From Bryum argenteum (Eukaryota > Streptophyta > Bryopsida > Bryales > Bryaceae): a stretch of DNA of 64,000 nt. The stretch covers positions 32,998,364 to 33,062,363 of the forward strand of contig CM073322.1 in assembly GCA_037043015.1 (NCBI GenBank), read 5' to 3'. Position 1 is the stretch's first letter, and each line of letters begins with the position of its first letter. This document shows positions 33,711 through 63,463 of the stretch, piece after piece. The translations under genes were made by a program, and so were the position numbers. The notes beneath the pieces are model-generated. The model was not told the origin of the DNA. It saw only the letters and a program-made list of their open reading frames with translations, and made no database searches.

Positions 33711-36135
33711 ATGGCGAAGATCGCGATCGTTCTGGTGCTGGCTATATTTGTGAGCGGAGTGCTTGGAATCCGCAACCTCACGGACTCCAAGGCTTACTCG
33801 GACCCGAGACTTGTTCCTGCTTTGGTCGTCTTTGGGGATTCCACTGTGGATGCTGGCAACAACAACTACTTAGCTACCATTATTAAGTCCGACTTCAGGC
33901 CTTATGGCATGAGTTATGCCGGCCACGTACCTACAGGCCGCTTCACCGACGGACTGCTCGTCACCGACTACGTTTGTAAGTACCACATTGTGAAATCCTT
34001 GCCTCGTCCCATGTCCGAGGTTTAGAGAGAGCAATCACTGACTCACTGTCAATGGAACATTCTTTTGACTTGCCATGGGCAGTTCGGCTGACATTGTAGG
34101 CTCGATCGATGACATTCACATGTCACATCCGTGATTGGGAAGATTGACTGCAGTCACGTATAGCTAAGCTCATGAGCTCTCCGATGAAGAAATTAGAATC
34201 TTCCTAGTATCGTTCGACGGTCGGGAAGTCCCTGCATTGACTTGAGTCCTTGAGAAAAGTTCCACTTCTGCTGCCATGGTCAAATTTCTGTAGCTTTTAG
34301 TTTCAGTTCAGTATAGAGATGGGCGTCAGCCGAGGTGAGGATCGTGAGGAATTCATATTTGCTATGAGCAACTTGGTACTAGCCTTTGTCACTGATATTT
34401 TTAAAGATTATTTTTTCAGATTCGCACATGGGCGTCGAGCCCATGGCAGGCATCCAGTGATTTTTTTCAGGGTGTCTTTATACACCCTCTGCTAGTTTAA
34501 GGTCATTTCGGACCACTCTGTCACTTACTTTCAGAGAAAGTAGGTCATAGCTGTGCATTGGATTGAAACAATGTGTCGGATGCTTGCAGCACAAAAGCTT
34601 GGGCTTCCACTGCAGCTGCCCTGGTTGAATCCGGCAGCACGCGGAGAAGCGATTCTCACCGGCGTCAACTTTGCTTCATCTGCATCTGGATGGTTCGAAA
34701 ATACTGCCACCCACTTCGTAAGTCTCTCTTGAAAACTCTGTTCTAGATTCTTTGCAATCCACCAGGACTTCAGCCTGAGTGCGCAAGGGCTTCCGTCACC
34801 CAAACTACCTCTGACCATCTATTAATTAGAGTCGCCCTGAGATTCTGATCTGACTGAAGGTAGAAGGTCTCTTAAACCTGAGTCAACTACACTATCTTAT
34901 TGTTTTCTTACATGTCAGGTGATGAACGCTCTGTTCACAATTATGCTTCTACATTTCCAGGGATGGTTTAGTGCGTGCGGGACAGAGATGTCCACAATGC
35001 TATTGAATCCTTCCTACTAAATATGTCTATAGAGAAAGCTATCCTGGATGATAGTCATCCAGGCTAAGTCATTAAGGTCGAGCTGGTGCAACAGACAGCA
35101 AGAAACACGCGGAAACTTTAGATTGAATGTTCAAGCAGGCTTATACAGTAGTCAGGAATTTTAAATCGAAGCATAGAATGGACTTGTAACTCTGCATATT
35201 ATGGCGTGCAGAATGTGAAGGGTCTGGACGCTCAGTACGAGTGGTTCGGCTTGTGGAAGAACGAAGTCTTGAAAACAGCAGGGCCAGAGAAAGGCCAATA
35301 CATCATCGACAATGCCCTGTACGCAATCAGCACGGGAGCTAACGACTGGGTCAACAACTACTACCTCAACCTCAATCTGCAGAACAAGTATACGCCGGAG
35401 AAGTACATCGACTTTCTCGTCGGAAATCTCAAGAAAAAAACTCTGGTAACTACACGAATAATTACTTCCGTAGTACCAATGACCATATTGACTAGGCACA
35501 CGTCCGAGGCTCACAAAAGGTTACTTTGTTGGGCAGGAGTTGTATAATATGGGCGGTCGCAACATTGTCGTTTTGGGCCTGCCACCGCTGGGCTGCATTC
35601 CCTCTCAGGTGACCCTGCACGGCGCAGTCGGCGACCCAGGTTGCGTGAAGTTTCTGAATGACATTTCCTCTCAGCAGAACGTCAAGATCATTCAAGCGAT
35701 CGATGACATGAACAAGATCACTCCCGGTGCAAGAATACTCTACATTGATATCTACAACCCCATCAAAGACGCCTATGAAAATCCTGCAAAATTCGGTAAG
35801 TCGCACGAGTCTGTTCTCAGTCCCTTTTCAAGAAAGCTTGCTCGTATCCACAACAACACTTGGTACGCTTCGATAGCCAAAAAAGTCTCCAAGTTTGTTG
35901 ATGGATTGTGTGGTGATCCTGAGCAGGGTTCAAGTACGCAAGGGACGGATGCTGTGGAACAGGGGACCTCGAAGTAGCAGTTTTGTGCAACAGAGCGCTG
36001 GTGTCGGCGTGCGACAATCCATCAGAGCATCTCTATTGGGACAGCTTTCACCCGACCTCGCACTTCTACAGCCAGTTAGCCGATTATATGTACAACTATG
36101 CCGCACCCAGAGTAAAACAACCGCCCAATCCTTAA
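33711..36135 (+). CDS. GDSL esterase/lipase, 364 aa, five exons
   Basis: Exons 33711-33975, 34590-34717, 35212-35445, 35537-35795 and 35927-36135 join with GT-AG borders into an unbroken 364-residue frame, the usual length of plant GDSL lipases. A signal peptide ([19 protein letters not shown]) implies secretion. Conserved blocks in order: [13 protein letters not shown] with nucleophile Ser44; [18 protein letters not shown] with Asn175; [17 protein letters not shown]; and [11 protein letters not shown] with Asp334 and His337 completing the catalytic triad. Members hydrolyse acyl esters of lipids or cuticle and cell-wall components; the substrate here is unknown. The first ATG with a signal peptide was chosen; the open frame before it has no ATG. 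All key residues are present, so it should be active. Confidence 0.93.
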
Positions 36136-37878: not shown

Positions 37879-38610
37879 ATGTGCATACACCATCAAAACA
37901 ATCACGTTAGTACAATAGAGCAAATTAACAACATTAAAAATGCAATTGAGGCCATGGCAATCCCGCACTACTATATACAACAAGCTCCACCAACCCCATA
38001 CAACACTATCGTCAATAAAAATAAAAGATGGAATAAAATTTTATACCCCTCATATACAAACTCAAACTCCGAACCCACATGTATACCCCCTCTACCAACA
38101 TTTGAAATCAACCCTACTCTAAAATTCCAACCGCAATACAGCTACTATACGGACGGCTCCTTCATATCACCTAAAGAAGCCGAGGATGGACATTGGAAAA
38201 AAGAAAAAGCTGGATACGGCATCTACAATCCCACAAAACCTGACGTGCAAATATCAGAAAGACTTCCTGGCCTTCAAACATGCTTTCGTGCCGAATTAAT
38301 GGTTATACATACAACCCTACACTTAATCAACACCAAATACCCAAATGAACCGGCCTATATCTTCACAGATTGCATAAACTGCCTATATAATCTAAATACT
38401 CACATATTACACCCATCCACACAACACAACCATCCTGACAAAACCATCTTAACAGAAATGGTTGAGATATTACAAAACCGTACTCAACCTGCTATACGGT
38501 ATTCCACAAAGTTAAAGCGCATATTAACATCACTGGCAACGAGCAAGCAGACAAACTTGCGAAAGCCGACGCCACCAAACGATACAAGGTAGCCACAAAA
38601 CCCCACGAAT
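37879..38610 (+). pseudogene. LINE RNase H domain, frameshifted
   Basis: The frame 37879-38592 contains YSYYTDGSFISPKEAEDG, ETCFRAELMVIHTTL-like text (here QTCFRAELMVIHTTL) and AYIFTDCINCLYNLN, carrying the D, E and D of RNase H. A frameshift near 38495 moves the last block, VFHKVKAHINITGNEQADKL with the final Asp, into the next frame. RNase H removes the RNA strand during target-primed reverse transcription. The N-terminal stretch upstream of YYTDGS (PTPYNTIVNKNKRWNKI) is typical linker sequence of LINE polyproteins. Confidence 0.8.
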
Positions 38611-41274: not shown

Positions 41275-44471
<3,197 letters not shown>

Positions 44472-49900: not shown

Positions 49901-51337
49901 CGCATCTTTGTTGAAATTACTGGATGGAAAGTATACTCCTAGATATCATTTTACTTGGTTGACGCTTGTCTTCTCTTATCTTTTCTGTGTGCAGATACAT
50001 ATCTCAATGGGACCAGTTTCATGAACAAGTAGGAGACATCTCAGCACGCGTTCCCTACATGGTGACAAAGTAAGTGCTGAAATTATCGAAATTTGGCTTG
50101 TCAGGAACTCTACACGTATGAACGCGGACGAGTTGCTAAGTTCTGTTGAGATGATCTGCTTGCAGCGGCAACCACGAGCGAGATTTTCCGGGATCTGGCT
50201 CCTTTTATCAAAATATGGACTCTGGTGGTGAATGTGGAGTACCAACACAAGTCATGTATCATATGCCGACTAAATATAAATCAAAATCCTGGTATGATTG
50301 GCAATTCGAGTTCTTTAGTTCGCAGCAGCAACGTCTTTTGTAGTTGCCAGACATAGTAAGATGTAGCTCCGTCTGTAAGCTGACAGCTCAAACCCAACTT
50401 CGCAAGAAGCAGTTTGTATTTGAGAATCGCCTACCTTAGCTAGAGACATGCTTTTAATTTGTTGTTCACTTCAGGTTCGTTTCATACCCTTCACATCAAG
50501 TAGCGGTTGAATAGGATGATTTGACTGATAAAGTTCTAAAAAGAACTAGATTATGGTCGTTCGTTCTAGATGCAAGTTGGTGAAATGAGCAACTTGAGCT
50601 GGTGGTGCAGGCACGAAGTAGACTACGGCATGTTCCACTTCTGTGTCGCAGACACAGAGGCGGACTGGAGAGAAGGCACCGAGCAGTACAAGTTCCTGGA
50701 AGAGTGTTTTGCAAAGGTCGATCGGCAACGCCAACCGTGGTTGATCTTTTTGGCACATCGTGTGCTGGGCTACTCCTCTGGTATCTTTTATTCCCAAGAA
50801 GGCGTATTTGCGGAACCGCATGGGCGTGAGAGCTTGCAAAAGCTTTGGCAAAAGTACAAAGTGGACCTTGCGTTTTACGGTCATGTGCATAATTATGAGC
50901 GGACCTGCCCTGTATATGAGGTGAGTAATTGCGAACTGCTAAATCAGACAGTGTAAATAATCATTTCTAATTTTGAGACTGCTGCTACATGTGAGGTTTT
51001 TTCTGAGGTTTTTCTGTGGCAGAGCCAATGCATTACCCCTGAAAAGCACCACTTCTCCGGCACATTCAACGCCACGATTCACATCGTAGCGGGTGGTGGA
51101 GGTTGTGACCTGTCGGAATTCAGTCCTTATGACACTCTCTGGAGTCTTGTGAAAGACATGGATCATGGGTTCACGAAGTTGACAGCGTTCAATCGGACCA
51201 CTCTGTTGTTCGAGTACAAGAAGAGCAGGGACGGCGAAGTGTATGATCAGTTTTGGATCTCCAGAAACTACAAGGATGTCCTAGGTTGTGATGGCACCCG
51301 CTATGGAAACTGCCCAGCCTTTACCCTTGCCACTTAG
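46945..51337 (+). CDS. Purple acid phosphatase, 650 aa, 14 exons
   Basis: Exons: 46945-47139, 47226-47320, 47455-47524, 47638-47760, 48160-48252, 48370-48502, 48941-49022, 49085-49275, 49369-49382, 49488-49618, 49995-50069, 50166-50291, 50611-50920, 51023-51337. All borders are GT-AG and the frame is unbroken. An N-terminal hydrophobic stretch (LVLCVLAILVHGSSSLW) suggests a signal peptide and secretion. An Fn3-like N-terminal part (DWIGVFSPAKF, MTVTWTSGYD) precedes the metallophosphatase domain. The metal ligands are visible: GDMG (Asp329), GDLAYANGY (Asp370, Tyr373), GNHE (Asn403), AHRVLG (His492) and GHVHNYER (His534, His536). It belongs to the large plant purple acid phosphatases (PAP1/PAP27 type), which hydrolyse phosphate monoesters and often serve phosphate scavenging. 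Exon 9 is only 14 nt. Its start ATG is preceded by an in-frame TTG only. Confidence 0.95.
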
Positions 51338-53306: not shown

Positions 53307-56276
53307 ATGAAGGAACTGGAGCAGTCTCCAATTCTTGCTTTCTTCTGCCTACATGTCCTATTTCTCGCCTGCATGACCGCTCAGGGGGCTGTTCTGACGG
53401 CTGAGCAGCTCATTTCAGAGAAAGTGCAAGAAATCAACAGTTTCGTTGCTATTATTGAGGCCAACTCCCGCAATTGTGGTACTTGCCTTCATCCATCTTC
53501 TGAAGCCTTGTATCCGTTTCTGGAACTAGACGTTCTGCTTGTGTGATTATCAAGCATTATCATTGCAGATTCGTCTCTTAAATGTTCTGTTATTGTGTGT
53601 GTTCTCTCTGTAGAGGATCGAAAATTTCTGTGGCAGGTACCCACTCTGTTTCATGCATGTGCAGGAGTGCTTAATGGTTGCGGAGCCGATGATTGTACTC
53701 GCATATCATGCTACCAGTACGGCACGCCAGGGAGTGCAACTACCGACTACCAATGCCTGGGAGTGCAAAACAACACAGATTGTGGCCTTTCCTGCAAGAA
53801 CAGGAACTTCGACTACAGCAGGAGCTTTCTGAGGTTATAATCTCGTCCATTGCATGCTCTGAGTTTTAGACATTTAAAAAAATTCGATGTAAACTAAAGG
53901 TTTCGTTACAATGATCTGACGCTCACAGATTGTAACATGTGCAGGCGTGTGGATGAAGTTGACGACCGTATAGCTCGGACTGTGTGCACACATCGTAATT
54001 TGGACGATGCGTTCAAGAAGAGCAGCATGTCGGACAGCAAGCATTTCTTTCGAGTCTTCTTTGCTGCCGTTGACGGCACGTTCCGAATCTACCCTGGAGC
54101 GGTATGATTTCTTATACATGTTTTACTGGTTTTTTTGGTCATGACTTTCCCTCGATCTTGCATAAACTGTTACTCTTGTAGTACAAGCCGTGGCAATGCT
54201 TGATCAAAGTGATATTGGTAGTATGCACTTGCGGTTGTCATAAAATGAAAAAAATGAACACTATCAGCCTATGGGTTCATGCACTAGTTAGTCCTTCTCC
54301 AAAAGAGACCGATGTACGCAGCATTTGTTTATTGGCGTGTATGTGGTATTCTAAAATCTAAGTCCTTCTCTTCGAGGTGCAAATCTAAGTCCTTTTCTTG
54401 CATTCATACCTTGTCATGGTCATATTCGTTAAATTGAGACTTTTCACATATGCTTGATTTTTTGCTTTTCATTGATTTCTTCACTAATTCTGTATTTGTA
54501 ATTGACTTTTTTATTATACATGGGAAGGTTATCCTCGACTCAACAAAAATCTAAAATTAGAAATCCTAAAGAAATTTCAGATTTTCTCACCTTAGTTGCT
54601 AAAATTTTAGGGCAAAAGTCTCAAAATAACAAAATTGTGGTTTGTCAGGATGAACTCTGCGAGGGCTCTCCGTATGATCCGCGAACGCGACCCTGGTATG
54701 TGTTAACGTTTGGCGCTTATGCAGCTACAGGAAATGATGTTTGCTGTATTCAGAAAGAGAGCAATTAAATTCGTACTGTCTTCTTGGCAGGTACATCGAA
54801 TCAACATCAGTTCCCATGGCCGTCACGATTCTTGTGGACTCGGGACTCAACATGAGGAGCAAACTCAGCGGTGGAACAACTCAGGAAACATACGGCAGCA
54901 AAGCCACAGCTACTGCCTTAGCTGTGTTGGAAACGCTAAAAGAAGACGAAGACTATGTAACTCTCATAACCTTCGATGGGGATGGCAGCAAGCTGCTGAA
55001 TACCACCATGATCTACAACAAGGCGCTTTTGAATCGAAGCTTCAGTATAAGGCTGCCTCAGAATGTTGCTGGTGGAAGCAAGGTGAACACCAATGCCTCA
55101 GCAACCAGTGATGCCATCAATTCCGCTATTACTGCACTGAGTACTCCAGGTCCGGTCCCAGCAAACTACCTCAAGGTGGTGATTGTTCTGACAACTGGGG
55201 AGCAATTTCAAGACTTGTCTCCGATGAATATGACGCCGTCGAATACCGGCGTTAATACGTTCGTGTACAATTTTCAAGAGAAAGCACCTCAGTGCAGTGC
55301 ATCTGCGAGAACATCCTTTGAGTCGATAGCAGTATTGAAATTGGATAATCCATTGTACGCTCTTCAGTCTTACTACTCCTTCCTCGCCAGCGTCCACAAG
55401 AGTTTTATAGGAGATGGGGTATCATATGGACAACAGTATGCAGATTATAGTGGTGTCGATAATTCCACATTGACGCTCTCAAAAGCAGGTACACGTGCTT
55501 ACTCAACCTGTCGACATATCACTTGCACATCCCAACATACATCATATACTTTCTCATAGGGTAGAAACTCGAGGTTTGAAGAGAAATACACTATACATTT
55601 TTTCAGCCCTGTTGCAGCACAGAAACTACACGATTTCTAACATCTTTGATTGAAAGAACATCCGGTTTGCTTATATTTACTAGATACGTGTTCTGTGTGC
55701 AGTGTTTGGGGGTGCGGGAGAGCTTCTGGGCGTGATTGGGATTGATTTTTATGAGAAGAAAGTGGACGAACAATACCCCACTATTCAGTTCCGATCAATC
55801 GTGGATACTGCTCGATCACATCAGCCTCAGACTGTCTTTGATACCGCCAAAGATCTGAAAACTAGTGTTTGCGTAAATCTAGTGAGTCGCGGGCATCTCA
55901 TTACTCTTCTTTGTCTGTGTTTTAATGTTGAGGAAGACCTTGTTCTCATTATATGTCACTTGTGCGGCTGCGGTTGTTTCAGACGGATCCCTGCCCAGGC
56001 CTGGCAACCAATTATGTGCAAGGATTTCTGTGTGAACCGAAATCGAAGGACAAAAGGATTGGGTGCTGCGGTTCATGCGTTCCAAAGAAGAATTGGGTGC
56101 CCACGATCGTGGGATCGACAGTTGGTGGTGGTGGTGGGCTTCTCGTGATAGCTTTCTTGTTTTACTGCTTTTATTGGAGCCCTCGAAAGGAAAGGAAAGC
56201 CAAAGCTGCGGAGGCGGCGGCCAGGTATCGCGACGGTTATGGATCCAAAGCCGCGGGCAGTGTGAGCAAAGCATAA
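53307..56276 (+). CDS. VWA/Cache membrane protein (alpha2-delta/CACHD1-like), 571 aa, copy 1
   Basis: Exons 53307-53478, 53665-53833, 53945-54101, 54649-54695, 54791-55488, 55703-55881 and 55983-56276 join into 571 residues. A signal peptide (about 1-28) is followed by a Cys-rich segment with ACYQYGTPG-like text (SCYQYGTPGS), then a Cache-like part: HFFRVFFAAVDGTFRIYPGA and YDPRTRPWYIES (about 177-186). A VWA-like domain starts at VTILVDSGLNM (about 194). Its metal site should read DxSxS but reads D198-S-G-L-N. After it, VFGGAGELLGVIGIDFYEKK (about 415-434) looks like the last Cache strands. A Cys-rich DPCPG...IGCCGSC segment, one membrane helix (about 515-539) and a short Lys/Ala-rich tail end the protein. 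Order and the RPWY motif match calcium-channel alpha2-delta subunits. The role in plants is unknown. A tandem paralogue lies downstream at 59412. Confidence 0.88.
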
Positions 56277-57696
56277 GTCGGACCATGATCGAGCTCTTTC
56301 GCTCCAGAGTTCGTTCTCGCGCCGAATGAGTAGATAAAATGCGAAGATGCTGAGATCAGTAAATGTCGGTTTAGCTAAACCGCCATTCTGCTCCACTTGC
56401 TCAGGTGAAGCGTGTATGATAGTGTAATGTAGAAATCTTAGCACTTGTAGCTAGAGGACTTCCGTGGGCCGCAAGGGCTGCAATATTCTGCAATAAATTA
56501 TTGCTAAGAATCGAACTTTCCATGCGCACAAATGTTGACATAAATATCGAGTCTGCAATGTATCGAAAGATCCGGGCATTCATGATTGACTTTCATGTCT
56601 TTTGAACAATGATGAGTTTCTCTACAGAAGAATTTAGCATTGCCTTTGGAGGCACAACTGGTCCCCGATGCAAGCTTACCGATTTCTTCCTTTGGAAACG
56701 AGTGGACGTTGAGCTGCACTGAATGAGCTGGTGGCCCGGCGTATGCTTCCGCGTCCCTCTCCCATTGATGAGCGGGTGTAGGATGCACTGTTGAGCATCG
56801 CCATAATGACTTTCCAAGCGAAATGTTTGAGAAACAATCATCCATCTCAACGTTTGGTATGTGCTCTGGATGCCCACCAACCGCACTGTAAACTCCACTA
56901 CTGGAGATTTAAATAATCCAGAAGTTTTAAAGCTCCACCCTCAAGCTCCTCTATTACCATAAGAGCTACAGTTTCTTAACGAGCCTCTCCACATATCTCT
57001 CCTGCAAAGAGCTTGGCCATGTATTTGAAGTGTACGTTGGCAATAGTGAGGTGAAGTTTGTGATCAGTGACGCTTAATGATTTTAGTATCATTATTATTT
57101 AATCAATCAATGCATTTATCAATTGAGTAATACATCTCAACCATAGCAGTAACGTGCCTGGAGAAGCAATACTGTAGCTGGACACTCATGTCTGTGAGGG
57201 AGGAATGGGGGTAGGGAAGAAGAGAGTGTGGGAAGGACAAGCCGAGGACTCTAGAGGAAGCTTCCCATGGGTGGCTGGGAGAGTTGCTGTTGGTGGTGAA
57301 TTGGTAATGCCTTAAAATAGGTGCGTACGGAGTGCCGTCTAAGAATTTGCCTTGAATGAGCAACCGGGCAACTGGCACCCTGAAAATGAAACTGTGGCAG
57401 AGCAAGCATCGTACATGCATTCATCATTTCTATGCGTTCGAACAGTGAGTACTCACTTTAGTATCAGTCAGCACTTTTCATCCCAAGTTCGATCTCGAGA
57501 TTCCTATCTGAAAAGGTTTCAGCGATCTCGAGATCTTCAACTTCTCGTCGCGAATTCATCCACATTTTTTCAGGCAGGAATCACGTCAGCTAGAGCACAC
57601 TGGTGGATGTTTTGAATCTGTCAAGTAGTGTCTTACAGTAACGGGATCTATAGCAGGCAGATCGTGAAGTACGACTTGTCGCCTGCCAATCCCCGT
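56277..57696. other. Intergenic between VWA/Cache paralogues
   Basis: No gene recognised. Several overlapping antisense frames near 56400-56900 have no family resemblance. Confidence 0.5.
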
Positions 57697-57700
57697 TTAA

Positions 57701-58059
57701 CCCTTAAACGCCCATGGGGTCTGAAACGGGCAGCCCAAAATTGATCACAACATCTTTTGGACTTGGGATCATGAATAGTGCACTTTTTGAACTTGGGCAT
57801 CATGAATAGACTAATCAATGATGAGCTTGCAACCTCCTACAAGGTTATGTACAACCCAACCTACCTACCACAATCCTTTCAAAGGACAAAATCATTCATA
57901 CAAATTGTGATTTGAATTGTGAAATTTCACTTTTTGAATGCATGAGAAGAAGGTGACCAGTTTAACATCAAAATATAAGTGAAATGTTGAGTACAGAGAG
58001 AGCTACAGGGAAGATTCTGTCGGAATCATGCCCCTCGGGCTTGCTTGGGCGTTTAAGGG
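57701..58059. mobile_element. TTAA-flanked MITE, family 1 copy 4
   Basis: 359 bp, ends CCCTTAAACGCCCATGG / TTGGGCGTTTAAGGG, with perfect TTAA on both sides (57697-57700 and 58060-58063). Inserted between the two VWA/Cache genes. Closely similar to the copy at 5364. Confidence 0.87.
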
Positions 58060-58063
58060 TTAA

Positions 58064-59411
58064 GTTCATTTCGAATTCGACTGGGGTGACCATCTTCACA
58101 GGAATTCAAAAACGATTGGAGAGTACCAGACTCTAACAAGGAATAGCAAAATCTGAGCAATTTACTAGATAAGGAGACCAAAGAAAATGTAAATGGTGTT
58201 CTCATAAGTAGGAATGTCTACAAAAGATAAATTTTTTGTGCATAAAACAGGAAGGTGATGCCATCTTCATTTTCTTGAGATACTTTTGTCCATGTCAAAC
58301 ATCACATCCTCCTCATAGTAAGGTGTGATCACGCTGCAGAAATCATATATTGGTGCGAGGATCATTAAAACAAGATACGCACAACAATGGAATCAAACTC
58401 AGAATAGACAGGAAACACGCTCGGGTGTCAATGCAAGGCTGGACTAAGCACCAGATAAACAGGAAGGGTTCAAACTCGAAACATCTAAAAGAGGACAAGA
58501 TACGCAACTAATGCCGATAGGAGATGTAGAAACTCGGCAGAGGGGACATTTTCCGTGCGGGAGGTGCATGAACGGAAGCAAAACAATGACGGGCACACAG
58601 CCTGGCGAGCAGAGCTGCAGCTGGATGAATGTGCGAAGATCATCCGAAGGCGCCCAGCTGCCCGTTGCCTCGCTCTGACCCCCAAGCCGCTCATGACCAG
58701 CTGGCTGGCACCTCGTGAAGTATAGAAGACCCTTACATCGCGCGCTACCGACAGACTGCGCTTGGACATCTCTCGCGTCGCCTAACATTCTTGCCTATCC
58801 CCCTTTTAGTTCGTCTCGTTTTCGGTCAAGGCGACCGTCTCTGGGTAGGATTCTCTCGTAACGGTAGAAAACAGGATCTTTGATTGTAGCACCCCGACAA
58901 AATCTGTGTTGAAGTAGTTCTAGATAGCCCCTGGTCGTTACTCAACCTACCCCTCCTGAGCTCATGATTTGTAATGATTTGCAAAGTAGACGAGTTCGGC
59001 GTACTACTAGTTGTATAGAGATTCAAGAGGAAGACCAACCAAGCAGACCAATCACTCAACTGTCGGTAGCCTCGAAAGACGAACTGTCGGTACTCAACTG
59101 TCGGTGGCACGTCGAGTGTTTTTCAAGCGGCGATATCAGTCACAGAACCTGTTGAACACCACCGGGGTAAGCTGAGACAAAATATCGTAAGCTATTTATC
59201 TTCGCCAGTTTCGATTGACAAACAGTTGTAATACTTTTTTGACGAATGTACGGTATACGCTAGTAATTTCTAAGAGGACATGGTTTGCAGTACATTCTGA
59301 AGGAGGGCTAGTATGTTGGACTTTAACAGGAGATCGTGCATTCTGCTTGCAGCTAGGTCTACAGTCCTGCGCTTATATTCACACATGGGAGTCTCGTATA
59401 CTCCAAACGAA
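58064..59411. other. Upstream region of VWA/Cache copy 2
   Basis: No gene recognised. Two overlapping minus-strand frames (58444-58788) are Cys/Ser-rich and resemble nothing known. Confidence 0.45.
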
Positions 59412-62400
59412 ATGAAGGGACTTCCGCGATACGATCTCAAGACTATTGCCATCCTTTGTATCATTAGTCTTCGTGTGATGAGTTTCAACTCCGTAGAAGC
59501 TCAAACGACTGCGAAGGAGCTTCTAGAGCTGAAAGAGAGGGAACTGAACATCTTTGTAGATGCCGTGGAGCGAAACTCTGCAGACTGCGGTACGTGCCTT
59601 CACGTCCTTGTATTGCATTGAAGCACTTCGAAGTCATTTGTACAATATTTGCAATCAGAAAAGGTCCCCAAACTTTTGACTTGCCATGTTAGATTCTCAT
59701 TCTTAAGTGGCCACTTATGAACTCAAAAGGAAATTTGTTGGAAAATTAAAAATAACCTCTACGTTGAAGCAGAAAGAACTGAAGTGTTACCAACTCATTA
59801 CTCAAAACTATGATGTAATGAACCACCCTCACGCATGAAGGCAACTGTGAAACTCTTGAAATATGGCCAAATGGCGCTCTTTCGAGTGCCTAATTAACAA
59901 ACCAAAACTGCAAGTTTTGTCACGAAGTGTCATTCGTTCGAGACTTTACATAAATACTTGCATGTGCAGATGTAATGAAGGGTTGTTCGAGTGACAAATG
60001 TTCCCGTCTGGCTTGCTACCAGTACGGCACCCCAGGGGATGCCAATTATAAATGTTTGGAAGTTGCAAACAACACCTTAAAATGCGATACGCCATCGTGT
60101 ACGACGAGGAACTTCGATTTCAGCAGGAGTGTTATCAGGTAATAGGAATCTCGCCATTTTACAACACTCTGAATGGTAATAACCATCTGTTACAAAATGC
60201 TGAGAAGTGGTCGCATCTGGTGCAGACTTGTGGATCCGGTCGAGAGGCGTACTGCCCGGACAATATGCACTCACAGATCATTGGATAGCCACTTTAGAAA
60301 CAGCACCATGGTGGATCCTAATCATTTCTTTCGAGTGTACTTCGGAGCTGTGGATGGCACTTGGAGACTGTACCCTGGAGCGGTATGAATGCTTCAGCCT
60401 CTCATTCCAATTTGCCTTACATTTCCTGAAGCGACTGCTTACATCTGCTACAGTATGATTCTCAACATTTTCTGTAGGATTGCTAAATTTCCAGTATTGC
60501 AGGATGAAGTATGCGATTATTCAGTCGACAATCGAATTCGACCCTGGTACGTGACGCACAACGAAGTTTATATACCATCAAGAATATGTGCCTAGGTTCA
60601 TAAATTTAAGTGTGCTTGCTTTTCGATTTTTGCTCCGGGCAGGTACCGCGAAGCCATAGATATTCCGAAGGTCGTGACTGTGCTCATAGACTCAGGCATT
60701 TTCATGCGCGGCATAATCACTGCCTCGACCCAAGAAACGTACATGAGCAAGGGGATTACGGCGGCACTTCAGCTTTTGAAGACTTTACGAGAGGACGTAG
60801 ACTACGTCACCTTTCTCTGTTTTGATGGAGATGGTCCAATCAAGCAGCTGAATGATTGGACCATGTTGTACACTGAAGACGTGTATCATTCGCTTGAAGA
60901 GAGCCTCACCCGCGTTGTTGCGAATGCAAGCAAGACAAATCCCACTCCTGAACAAACTAACTTTTTTCTCAAATACACCATGAACCAGCTGGCTTACTCA
61001 AAGCCGGAAGATTATTTGAAGGTGTGCATTTCGTCACCCTCCATCTTCGCTTTAGCTTAGAGGTTTAATCGAGACTATACTCAAGTGTTGATTTTGAGCT
61101 GCAGGTGGTGGTCGCCTTCATTGGGGGTCAGCAATACAAAAACAACTCTGACCTCAATATTACACAATTTCCGAATGTGAATCTGTTCATTTACAGTTTT
61201 CGGGCAGAACAAGAATATTACTGCGACCCAGCTCTTCGGGCATCCTTAGAAGGGATCCCCAACGAGAGGCTAAACAATCCGTTGTATGCGTTGCACTCCT
61301 ACTACTCATTCTTGGGGAAACTTCACAGGAGTTTTATGAAAAATGCGACTAACTTCGGCATTCAGTACGAAGATTACTCAGGGATTGATGAGCACACCCT
61401 GACACTAAGTAAAGCAGGTGCGCCAACTCAATCATGCTGGCTCCTGAATCTCTATGCTGTAACGTTCGTGACCACGGTCTTGAAATCCATTGCAAGTTTC
61501 CACTTCTTGCTCTCGGATATCTCGTGGCCAGCAGACCACGATTGTCGAAGTAAAAAGGTTTGTCCGATATCCAACGCCCCGAAAACCTCATCGAACGTTG
61601 GTCCTCGAAAATGCAGTGAGCATAATATCAATCAGACTGTGCAATGAACTAGATCTCAAGGACATTCAAACACGTTTAAAGCCAAGAGTTCGTTCGGTCT
61701 CTCTTTATACGACTTTTAAGTCACGTTCGATTGTTGAGTTACAATTAGTTATTTTCTTGCTGTTTGTAAGTGCTTACACTATCTGTGCTTTTACAACAAA
61801 GATGACAGTCTCTAGTTGATTCAAACGCGAATTTCGTTAATCGGCACAGAAAAGCGGAACCGAATGTTGAGGTTTTTAAAAGCTGGTCTCGTTTTCATTT
61901 GATCTTAATGAAATAGCCTCAAGTGAGTTTACAAGGAAACGGGAAAGAAATTATGAAAATGAGAGATACAGGTACCTGAAATGGACGACATAGTTTTGCA
62001 AATCAAGATATGTAAGTGAATTCGTCTGGTGGGAGGTGCAGCTTTTGGTCCTAATGGAGAGCTCTTGGGTGTGGTGGGGCTGGACTTTTTCGAGCGAAAA
62101 GTGAATGACTCGTACTCCAGTTTCAAATGGGATTCGGTTGTGGAGGAGGCTGGAAAACATGACTCAGGACGAACGTTCAACACGTCGACGGACCTGAGTA
62201 CAAACGTCTGCTTCAGCCAGGTACAACCATTGCCCCGTTGCCCAGATGTATTCATCATCTTCTAGACTCTGACTGTCGAGGGCATGATTCACTTTGTTGC
62301 AGACGGATCCATGCCCAGGCCTTGACAGTGCAAATGTACAAGGCTTTCTTTGCTCGACAAAATCAGATGACCCAAAAATAGGCTGTTGCGGTACCTGCAG

Positions 62401-62599
62401 ACCGTCTAGGAAGCACAAGCTAAAGCTATGGGAAATTGTTCTCATCGTTGTAGCTGGAGTGATTTGTTGCCTTGGTGTCTGTGGCGTAATTTATTATCGT
62501 AAACGTACACTCCCGAACTCTCCACCGAAAGTAACTGAATTCCCCGGAGGACGTCACGAAACACCCCTGAGCTCCGGAAACCAGAGTTCTCCAGGCTAA
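59412..62599 (+). CDS. VWA/Cache membrane protein (alpha2-delta/CACHD1-like), 571 aa, copy 2
   Basis: Exons 59412-59589, 59970-60138, 60226-60382, 60503-60546, 60643-61021, 61105-61417, 62042-62220 and 62303-62599 join into 571 residues, the same length as the copy at 53307. Exons 2, 3 and the next to last have identical lengths in both (169, 157, 179 nt). Layout as in copy 1: signal peptide, CYQYGTPGDANYKC, FFRVYFGAVDGTWRLYPGA, NRIRPWYREA (about 178-187), VWA start VVTVLIDSGIFMRG with D199-S-G in place of DxSxS, then AAFGPNGELLGVVGLDFFER, DPCPG...IGCCGTC, one membrane helix (about 516-538) and a Pro/Ser-rich tail. One extra intron (61022-61104) splits the VWA exon. In-frame ATGs at 59385 and 59313 are alternatives; 59412 was chosen because it places the hydrophobic signal close to the start. 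Confidence 0.87.
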
Positions 62600-63319
62600 C
62601 TTAGACCTCAAAGCAATTTTTTTATATTCTCACTGATACAACGGTCAGGTCAGAATCTTTCAAATGAGATCGTAGGTTTGTAGCTTCATAGACAACTCAT
62701 GATGTCAATTGGTATGTGACATTCTCATGCTTCGTCATAAACTGATCGTAAATATCAAATTGCGAGGTAACAGATCCGAGTTTGTTTGTTTTGTCTTTCT
62801 TACCAAATCAAGGTATCAATCAGTAGAGAAGAATGCAATTTTGAACCAAAGTTGTGTACCGCTTAGTGTGGGAGTAAGAAATTTGAGTTTGAAATGGATG
62901 CATCGTCCATGAGCTGTTACATTTTGAGAGATGAAATTTTGAGAGATGAAAGCTTAGGGTGAGTTTGAATGAGGGAACGAGCCACGAAAACGTGTGTGTA
63001 GTGTCTTGGATTGGATTTGATTCTCGTACTTCACATTTCAGTTAGGTTTGCTTTACACGAGAGGTCAAGTCATTGATGGGGCCAATTTATGCCAAAATTT
63101 TCATATGTGATTGGTTCATTTCTTGAAATTGGTCACATGGGAAGTCAAAAGCCAATTTGTTCGAATTATATTAATTATGGGAGGAGGACAAGTTATGGCA
63201 CGGTCCTTGCGGTAAAAGTTGTGAGATACATGAATAATCTCCCGTCAAAATTATTATATCACTAAAATATTTCATTGTGTCAATCAAAAGCATGTCCAGA
63301 ATGTAGCTAATATCGCAAG
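62600..63319. other. 3' flank of VWA/Cache copy 2, no gene
   Basis: No reading frame or repeat was recognised before the minisatellite. Confidence 0.5.
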
Positions 63320-63463
63320 TTGGCCTCATGGCCTTGCAAATTGGTCTCATGGCCTTGCAAATTGGTCCCATGGCCTTGCAAGTTGGTCTTATGTCCTTGC
63401 AAATTGGTCCCATGGCCTTGCGAATTGGTCCCATGGCCTTGCGAATTGGTCCCATGGCCTTGA
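63320..63463. repeat. 21-bp minisatellite, about 7 copies
   Basis: The unit TTGGTCCCATGGCCTTGCAA plus A varies at a few sites (GTCTC, GTCTTATGT, GCGAA). Because 21 is a multiple of three, both strands stay open and give repetitive peptides (MALQIGL on plus); these are not evidence of a gene. Confidence 0.9.

Follow-up and report, generated by a model that had tools for sequence, protein, structure and literature searches.

The stretch of the Bryum argenteum genome analysed here (the window, 64,000 nucleotides; C2:32998364-33062363 of an assembly of 258.8 Mb in 25 contigs) carries two paralogous genes, A and B, in whose predicted ectodomains a VWA domain is inserted into a single Cache module. 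We are close to certain of this homology and anatomy, judging from sequence and structure-model comparisons. In the clade to which A and B belong, the metal-ion-dependent adhesion site (MIDAS) of the VWA domain has been lost, and the amino-acid-binding motif of the Cache module is the part that seems largely conserved. A and B are best read as type I membrane proteins and as kinase-less, receptor-like members of a bryophyte receptor family. As an overall explanation we favour an amino-acid-sensing family in which A and B would be paired with a kinase partner, a reading whose chances we consider evenly balanced.

Gene models and the split Cache module

An earlier note on this stretch had described two intact paralogues of 571 amino acids each. 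Intactness was borne out, as both spliced models (Table 1) are open from methionine to stop with GT-AG introns throughout. The length holds for A; gene B has two candidate starts, an ATG at 59385 that gives 580 amino acids and an in-frame ATG at 59412 that gives 571 and from which residues of B are numbered here. Gene B contains one extra intron relative to A (61022-61104). Of 553 aligned residues, 258 (46.7%) are identical between the two proteins; because synonymous divergence is saturated, the ratio of nonsynonymous to synonymous divergence (dN/dS, 0.48/3.19) was not used as proof of selection. Each protein has one N-terminal hydrophobic stretch and one close to the C-terminus, after which about 30 residues remain as a tail. 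A contains 19 cysteines and seven N-glycosylation sequons, and B 21 and nine, one of the latter in its tail. Homologues 46-52% identical over 94-96% of A were found in Ceratodon and one further assembly (P0001: 52%), and P0004, from a close relative, matches A at 94% over 232 amino acids. A third copy in the same genome, at C2:29.31 Mb, matched all exons and is apparently complete (unassembled model). With these relatives, the two window genes are unlikely to be a chance reading of the sequence.

Profile hidden Markov model searches for VWA, VWA_N and Cache, which the earlier note had proposed as a check, did not reach curated cut-offs. In Pfam, VWA, VWA_N and dCache_1 all scored below these cut-offs on A, and none of the three matched B alone at E ≤ 1. 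The PF00092 profile found eight places over the genome, none of them in the window, so a search of this kind misses these genes. Because Pfam fell short on both proteins, a split-domain test by excision was needed. Uncut A matched dCache_1 with 14.9 bits over positions 108-150, which amounts to half a Cache domain; on removal of residues 190-392 the score rose to 23.1 bits and the match extended over positions 61-150 of 240. Five of the six VWA-excised proteins scanned matched dCache_1 at E ≤ 0.1, and an alignment to the bacterial sensor PctA spanned both halves of VWA-excised A (E 0.0014).

A deletion scan of seven proteins, scored against the Cache part of the sensor kinase P0012, gave its top score at most 15 residues from the VWA start in all seven. 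For A, the score rose from 27.3 uncut to 42.8 cut, whereas swapping the halves gave 27.4 and no other cut place exceeded 32.0; for P0024 of Marchantia it rose from 22.6 to 52.9, with at most 39.5 elsewhere. Since excision extends the Cache matches and the scan peaks at the VWA domain, the predicted VWA domain interrupts a single, membrane-distal Cache module, after the RPWY motif (residues 180-183 in A, 181-184 in B); a Cys-rich stalk leads from this module to the C-terminal helix. The two "Cache-like halves" of the earlier description do contain Cache sequence, as halves of one module rather than two units. The structure model of P0001 has an overall fold similar to alpha2-delta-1 (Foldseek, VIA-align), and in VIA-align the matches listed after those to alpha2-delta and CACHD1 start at model residues 149-190, at or near the VWA domain. 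Together with the deletion scan, this upholds the proposed alpha2-delta/CACHD1-like arrangement with RPWY directly before VWA.

In alpha2-delta-1 the VWA domain likewise interrupts a Cache module (PMC9901441). There too it follows RPWY directly and splits the amino-acid motif, and the protein is extracellular with one C-terminal hydrophobic segment. However, alpha2-delta and CACHD1 have two dCache domains (four Cache modules) in about 1100 amino acids, whereas A and B have one module in 571. Neither a membrane-proximal second Cache module nor the second dCache of alpha2-delta was found in A by the dCache_1 match on the VWA-excised protein. Alpha2-delta (1 and 2) has an intact MIDAS, consisting of DxSxS and a later Asp, where A and B have DSG and no Asp; A and B further differ from alpha2-delta-1 in their hydrophobic helix, which a basic tail follows. 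CACHD1 has about twice the length of A and B, and the partners named in its structure-entry titles, FZD5 and LRP6, are animal proteins. Because both groups have a different number of modules, and alpha2-delta a different MIDAS as well, we do not file A and B as members of either, although they may work in a similar way.

Metal site and amino-acid pocket

The DSG that the earlier note had seen in A and B in place of DxSxS recurs in their relatives. In the window clade (A, B, C2_29, P0001, P0002, P0003 and P0005) the site reads D[S/T]G in all seven members, which falls short of DxSxS by one residue, and the later MIDAS Asp is missing from every one. The DxSxS of relatives lies at the same aligned position and not elsewhere in the domain, as the alignment suggested at the time now makes clear: three C9 paralogues of this genome read DVSVS, DVSKS and DVSLS. 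C5a-c and C10a-c have DxAxS, and the Sphagnum proteins DVSPT, DVSAT, DAGAS or DNGLS; the sister-Sphagnum rows are near duplicates, so that the motif counts are not independent. A degenerate first motif was also found beyond the window clade, as DTEQQ and DAGQV in two of the three kinase-fused loci of this genome. Of the other 32 rows, 28 keep the later Asp, three (C9 copies) have Asn or Lys instead and one is a case of missing data; all four rows of the kinase group retain it.

An IQ-TREE phylogeny of 42 rows placed the window clade on a long branch (0.975) with a support of 100/100 and nested it within moss paralogues (99.9/100). P0004, which reads through an intron, was dropped from both the motif table and the tree, as were P0012, L034-L038 and the L030 fragments; the tree additionally omits C5d. 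Because DxSxS is retained at the corresponding alignment position by relatives, some of them paralogues from the same genome, the clade-wide MIDAS loss is, by this alignment, derived in one moss clade. It is also old enough to be common to Ceratodon and B. argenteum. A loss throughout the clade points to a changed function rather than decay, in line with what had been proposed from A and B.

Residues Y175, R180, W182, Y183, Y398, D400 and D429 of A correspond to Y121, R126, W128, Y129, Y144, D146 and D173 of PctA, by a hand count along the PctA alignment of VWA-excised A. We take Y121 and D146 to be positions of the motif; R126, W128, Y129, Y144 and D173 are named pocket residues of PctA (PMC10104139, PMC11245519). 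Y121 and these five align between A and the bacterial dCache_1AA sensors PctA and PctB, from which A and B differ in lacking the membrane-proximal Cache module and the chemotaxis output domain and in carrying the VWA insertion. The amino-acid motif Y..R.WY + Y..D is complete in A. Within the window clade, R126, W128, D146 and D173 are each kept in seven of seven members, and Y121, Y144 and Y129 in six of seven. The four kinase-group rows keep all motif positions bar one Phe at Y121. Of the remaining 32 rows, 11 have Asp at D173 and 16 a different residue, with the position missing in five; 16 have Asp at D146.

Mean pairwise identity was compared between the two domains as a description of 3 to 6 hand-picked sequences per clade. 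It was higher in the Cache than in the VWA part for the window clade (0.654 versus 0.453, ratio 1.44) and the kinase group (0.452 versus 0.308, ratio 1.47), and less distinctly so in the C9 clade (ratio 1.20) and Sphagnum (ratio 1.15). The order was reversed in the C5/C10 clade, where D173 is lost (0.515 versus 0.564, ratio 0.91). This suggests that pocket and metal site are kept or lost independently of each other.

Kinase-fused relatives and amino-acid sensing

Exon-wise searches of this genome identified the ectodomain at no fewer than 21 loci (A, B and 19 others), some of them not intact, with tandem groups on C9, C5 and C10. A Marchantia paleacea protein of 910 amino acids, P0024, contains Cache, VWA, a hydrophobic segment and a kinase. 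When the cytoplasmic parts of P0022 and P0024 were searched against 19 own-genome stretches and the window, matches occurred solely at L050, L051 and L052, on the ectodomain strand, and none in the window; A and B have no kinase in the same protein. In L050 (C9:11.447 Mb) the membrane and kinase exons join in frame via a 236-base GT-AG intron, and PF07714 matches the kinase exon with 132 bits. L051 (C6:7.08 Mb) and L052 (C4:1.37 Mb) have receptor-like kinase exons after the Cache-VWA ectodomain (unassembled models). As these three loci cluster with P0024 (98.9/99, IQ-TREE), the predicted kinase-bearing form is common to a liverwort and a moss. The catalytic loop reads HGD in the L050 kinase and HRD in that of L052. 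Two Ceratodon proteins, P0022 and P0023, have the ectodomain fused to a different kinase type and group with the kinase-less P0018; they may reflect a fusion that arose separately or genes joined in the model, and were not used as support.

Protein searches returned mosses and one Marchantia, and none named Physcomitrium or a seed plant; about 8000 candidates were scored in each, so absence is not implied. The alignment-based search A1 found six Sphagnum proteins and one kinase, the other mosses of the alignment being absent, a bias that probably arose because its words came from Sphagnum rows. Further partial copies were seen in the B. argenteum genome. L034-L038 (C6, C9, C3, C7 and C9) are lone matches to the Cys-rich second exon, with the rest of the gene missing from the stretch, and two of them look like mutual copies. 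L030 (C2:29.324-29.332 Mb) holds pieces of further copies on opposite strands near the C2:29.31 gene. L045, L046 and L047 (C7, C8, C2:18.67) form a near-identical trio in which the first VWA half was not found; the C8 and C2 copies, almost identical where compared, suggest a recent duplication. By eye, a short FPG-type motif was noted in the tails of B (window 62537-62560), P0002, P0003 (as FTG), P0005, P0016, P0017 and P0018, all kinase-less, and not in A or P0001. It is possibly a docking site.

A and B share their type I topology with plant receptor-like kinases, and their relatives P0024, L050, L051 and L052 bear a kinase. Like plant receptor-like proteins, they combine a membrane helix and an ectodomain related to that of receptor kinases with the absence of a kinase. 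No plant receptor class whose ectodomain joins Cache and VWA is known to us. A literature search gave no paper pairing "receptor-like kinase" with "Cache domain", and the words Willebrand, VWA and Cache do not occur in the main text of a large receptor survey (PMC10834447). In the proposed mechanism, the apoplastic ligand of the Cache pocket would be a free amino acid or a comparable zwitterion, and the VWA domain, freed of metal-dependent ligand binding, would serve as a scaffold or make a metal-independent contact. A and B would either pair with a partner that bears a kinase or compete with it, the simplest candidate being a Cache-VWA receptor kinase of the same genome. Amino-acid sensing by this ectodomain, putative as it is, has in our view a chance just short of even; that A and B act with a kinase partner is a little more doubtful.

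Several results weigh against this reading. B has Val at Y121 and so lacks the first Tyr of the motif, and the enrichment of motif sites among the invariant columns of the window clade is only modest (four of seven versus 50 of 249 overall; hypergeometric P 0.03). After excision, the dCache_1 score of A stayed below the curated cut-off of 45 bits, as did the scores of all six VWA-excised proteins, and excised P0001 had no dCache_1 match. The P0001 structure model is of low confidence (predicted local distance difference test, pLDDT, 47.7); that of P0009 (pLDDT 42.6) is well folded in the VWA part only, and alpha2-delta was absent among the 50 Foldseek matches listed for it. Depending on the root of the tree, the kinase may have been lost by the kinase-less branch or gained by the kinase-bearing one. 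Finally, the pairing of A or B with a kinase is drawn by analogy with plant receptor-like proteins.

Alternative explanations and a Cav-like channel gene

VWA domains are common protein-contact modules, and A and B might instead be adhesion or cell-wall proteins whose VWA domain contacts a protein or wall ligand independently of metal and whose Cache pocket has a structural role only. The Cys-rich stalk and several glycosylation sequons would fit, and the faster evolution of the VWA part in the window clade could suit diversifying partners. This would leave both the kinase fusions and the four pocket positions retained in every clade member unexplained, and we consider it unlikely.

Land plants are stated to lack four-domain Cav channels (PMC5824947, PMC11085791), and the earlier note had likewise taken such channels to be generally absent from plants. 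This fails here, because the moss genome appears, judging from its open segments, to hold a four-domain Cav-like channel gene. The PF00520 profile gave 22 matches over the genome, three of them consecutive (C5:14381521-14385404). Open segments along the stretches L055, L054 and L053 traverse the profile in four successive passes: positions 38-80, 124-156, 136-188 and 206-238 in domain I; 33-69, 64-104, 123-207 and 201-236 in domain II; 46-234 in domain III; and 63-185 and 186-233 in domain IV. The pieces of domain I and four others fall singly under the curated cut-off (E 0.028 to 1.6e-5), and five of the 16 scanned segments had no PF00520 match. Pore segments read, in order, TGESW, TTDAW and TLDNW. 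The exon L053:3994-5067, presumably domain III and the start of IV, matches Cav channels (best 3.6e-47, to Cav3.3), and its top solved match is a T-type channel; a second copy of it was not found in the genome. Single exons of presumed domains I and II had no solved-structure match. The gene is AT-rich, with a GC content at third codon positions of 24% in this exon versus 52% in A, which raised contamination as a source. This is unlikely: a repeat between domains I and II occurs at no fewer than 39 other places, on all of C1-C11, so the gene sits in native DNA. It may have been acquired by horizontal transfer.

With such a gene in the same genome, the family could be an auxiliary subunit that promotes surface expression of the Cav-like channel, as alpha2-delta does in animals. 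The shared ectodomain arrangement and the DxSxS retained by the C9 paralogues are compatible with this, and CACHD1, whose MIDAS is disrupted too, is reported to raise Cav2.2 currents nonetheless (PMC6231325). However, the main contact between alpha2-delta and Cav is described as running through the MIDAS (PMC9901441), which A and B lack. One channel gene was found, as against at least 21 loci of the family; kinase fusions are unexpected for a channel subunit, and the top solved match of the channel is T-type. To our knowledge, T-type channels do not need alpha2-delta. We therefore regard a channel subunit as distinctly improbable. Decay, with the MIDAS loss reflecting relaxed constraint en route to pseudogenes, is very improbable: the genome does hold broken family copies (the L030 fragments, and stops in several matches) and B has lost one motif residue, but A and B are intact and their exon structure is conserved, and the loss recurs in members of the same strongly supported clade (100/100) from Ceratodon and from C2:29.31 Mb, the latter copy being apparently complete.

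Elsewhere in the window, a 21-base tandem repeat of seven copies (63315-63462) lies just downstream of gene B, and pieces of four unrelated genes were recognised (Table 1).

Table 1. Coordinates of the features discussed; positions refer to the window unless a contig is given.
Feature	Position	Strand	Remarks
Gene A, 571 amino acids	53307-56276	+	7 exons, six GT-AG introns
Gene A exons	53307-53478, 53665-53833, 53945-54101, 54649-54695, 54791-55488, 55703-55881, 55983-56276	+	
A Cys-rich exon	53665-53833	+	between N-terminal helix and Cache part
A YDPRTRPWY, residues 175-183	54673-54794	+	split by intron 54696-54790; onto PctA Y121/R126/W128/Y129
A inserted VWA, residues 190-392	54813-55421	+	hand-chosen boundaries; deletion scan, Foldseek and VIA-align of P0001
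A DSG replacing MIDAS DxSxS, residues 198-200	54837-54845	+	
A YAD, Y.D of amino-acid motif	55437-55445	+	second Cache half
A Asp429 (GVIGIDF)	55744-55746	+	onto PctA D173
A probable transmembrane helix, about residues 515-539	56103-56177	+	hydropathy; then basic tail
Gene B, 580 amino acids	59385-62599	+	8 exons, seven GT-AG introns
Gene B exons	59385-59589, 59970-60138, 60226-60382, 60503-60546, 60643-61021, 61105-61417, 62042-62220, 62303-62599	+	
B Cys-rich exon	59970-60138	+	
B VDNRIRPWY, residues 176-184	60524-60646	+	split by intron 60547-60642; Val for first Tyr
B inserted VWA, residues 191-391	60665-61350	+	hand-chosen boundaries; contains intron 61022-61104; deletion scan
B DSG replacing MIDAS DxSxS, residues 199-201	60689-60697	+	
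B YED	61366-61374	+	
B Asp428	62083-62085	+	
B probable transmembrane helix	about 62414-62488	+	
GDSL lipase piece	35540-35974	+	
RNase H-like piece	37879-38589	+	below curated cut-off
Tubulin gene pieces	42102-43969	-	
Calcineurin-like phosphatase piece	50570-50953	+	
Cav-like gene stretches L055, L054, L053	C5:14371300-14387300		

Returning to the receptor reading, its fullest form is that a bryophyte class undescribed in the literature searched, made up of Cache-VWA receptor kinases and kinase-less partners, senses an extracellular amino acid via the split pocket to which gabapentin binds in alpha2-delta, that the window clade dropped metal-dependent VWA binding but retained this pocket, and that, alongside the Cav-like channel, an ancestral link of the ectodomain to calcium entry may survive in this moss; we put this forward tentatively, as possible rather than probable. 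It would place the gabapentin-receptor type of ectodomain in land plants, with a receptor kinase as its likely output. Two sites that are both present in alpha2-delta-1 would come apart in this family: the window clade has the pocket without the MIDAS, and in the C5/C10 clade the VWA domain is better kept than the Cache module and the pocket Asp is lost. Moss genes are open to knock-out, which makes the roles of the two sites testable. The Cav-like gene, if confirmed by transcripts, would correct the claim that land plants lack such channels.

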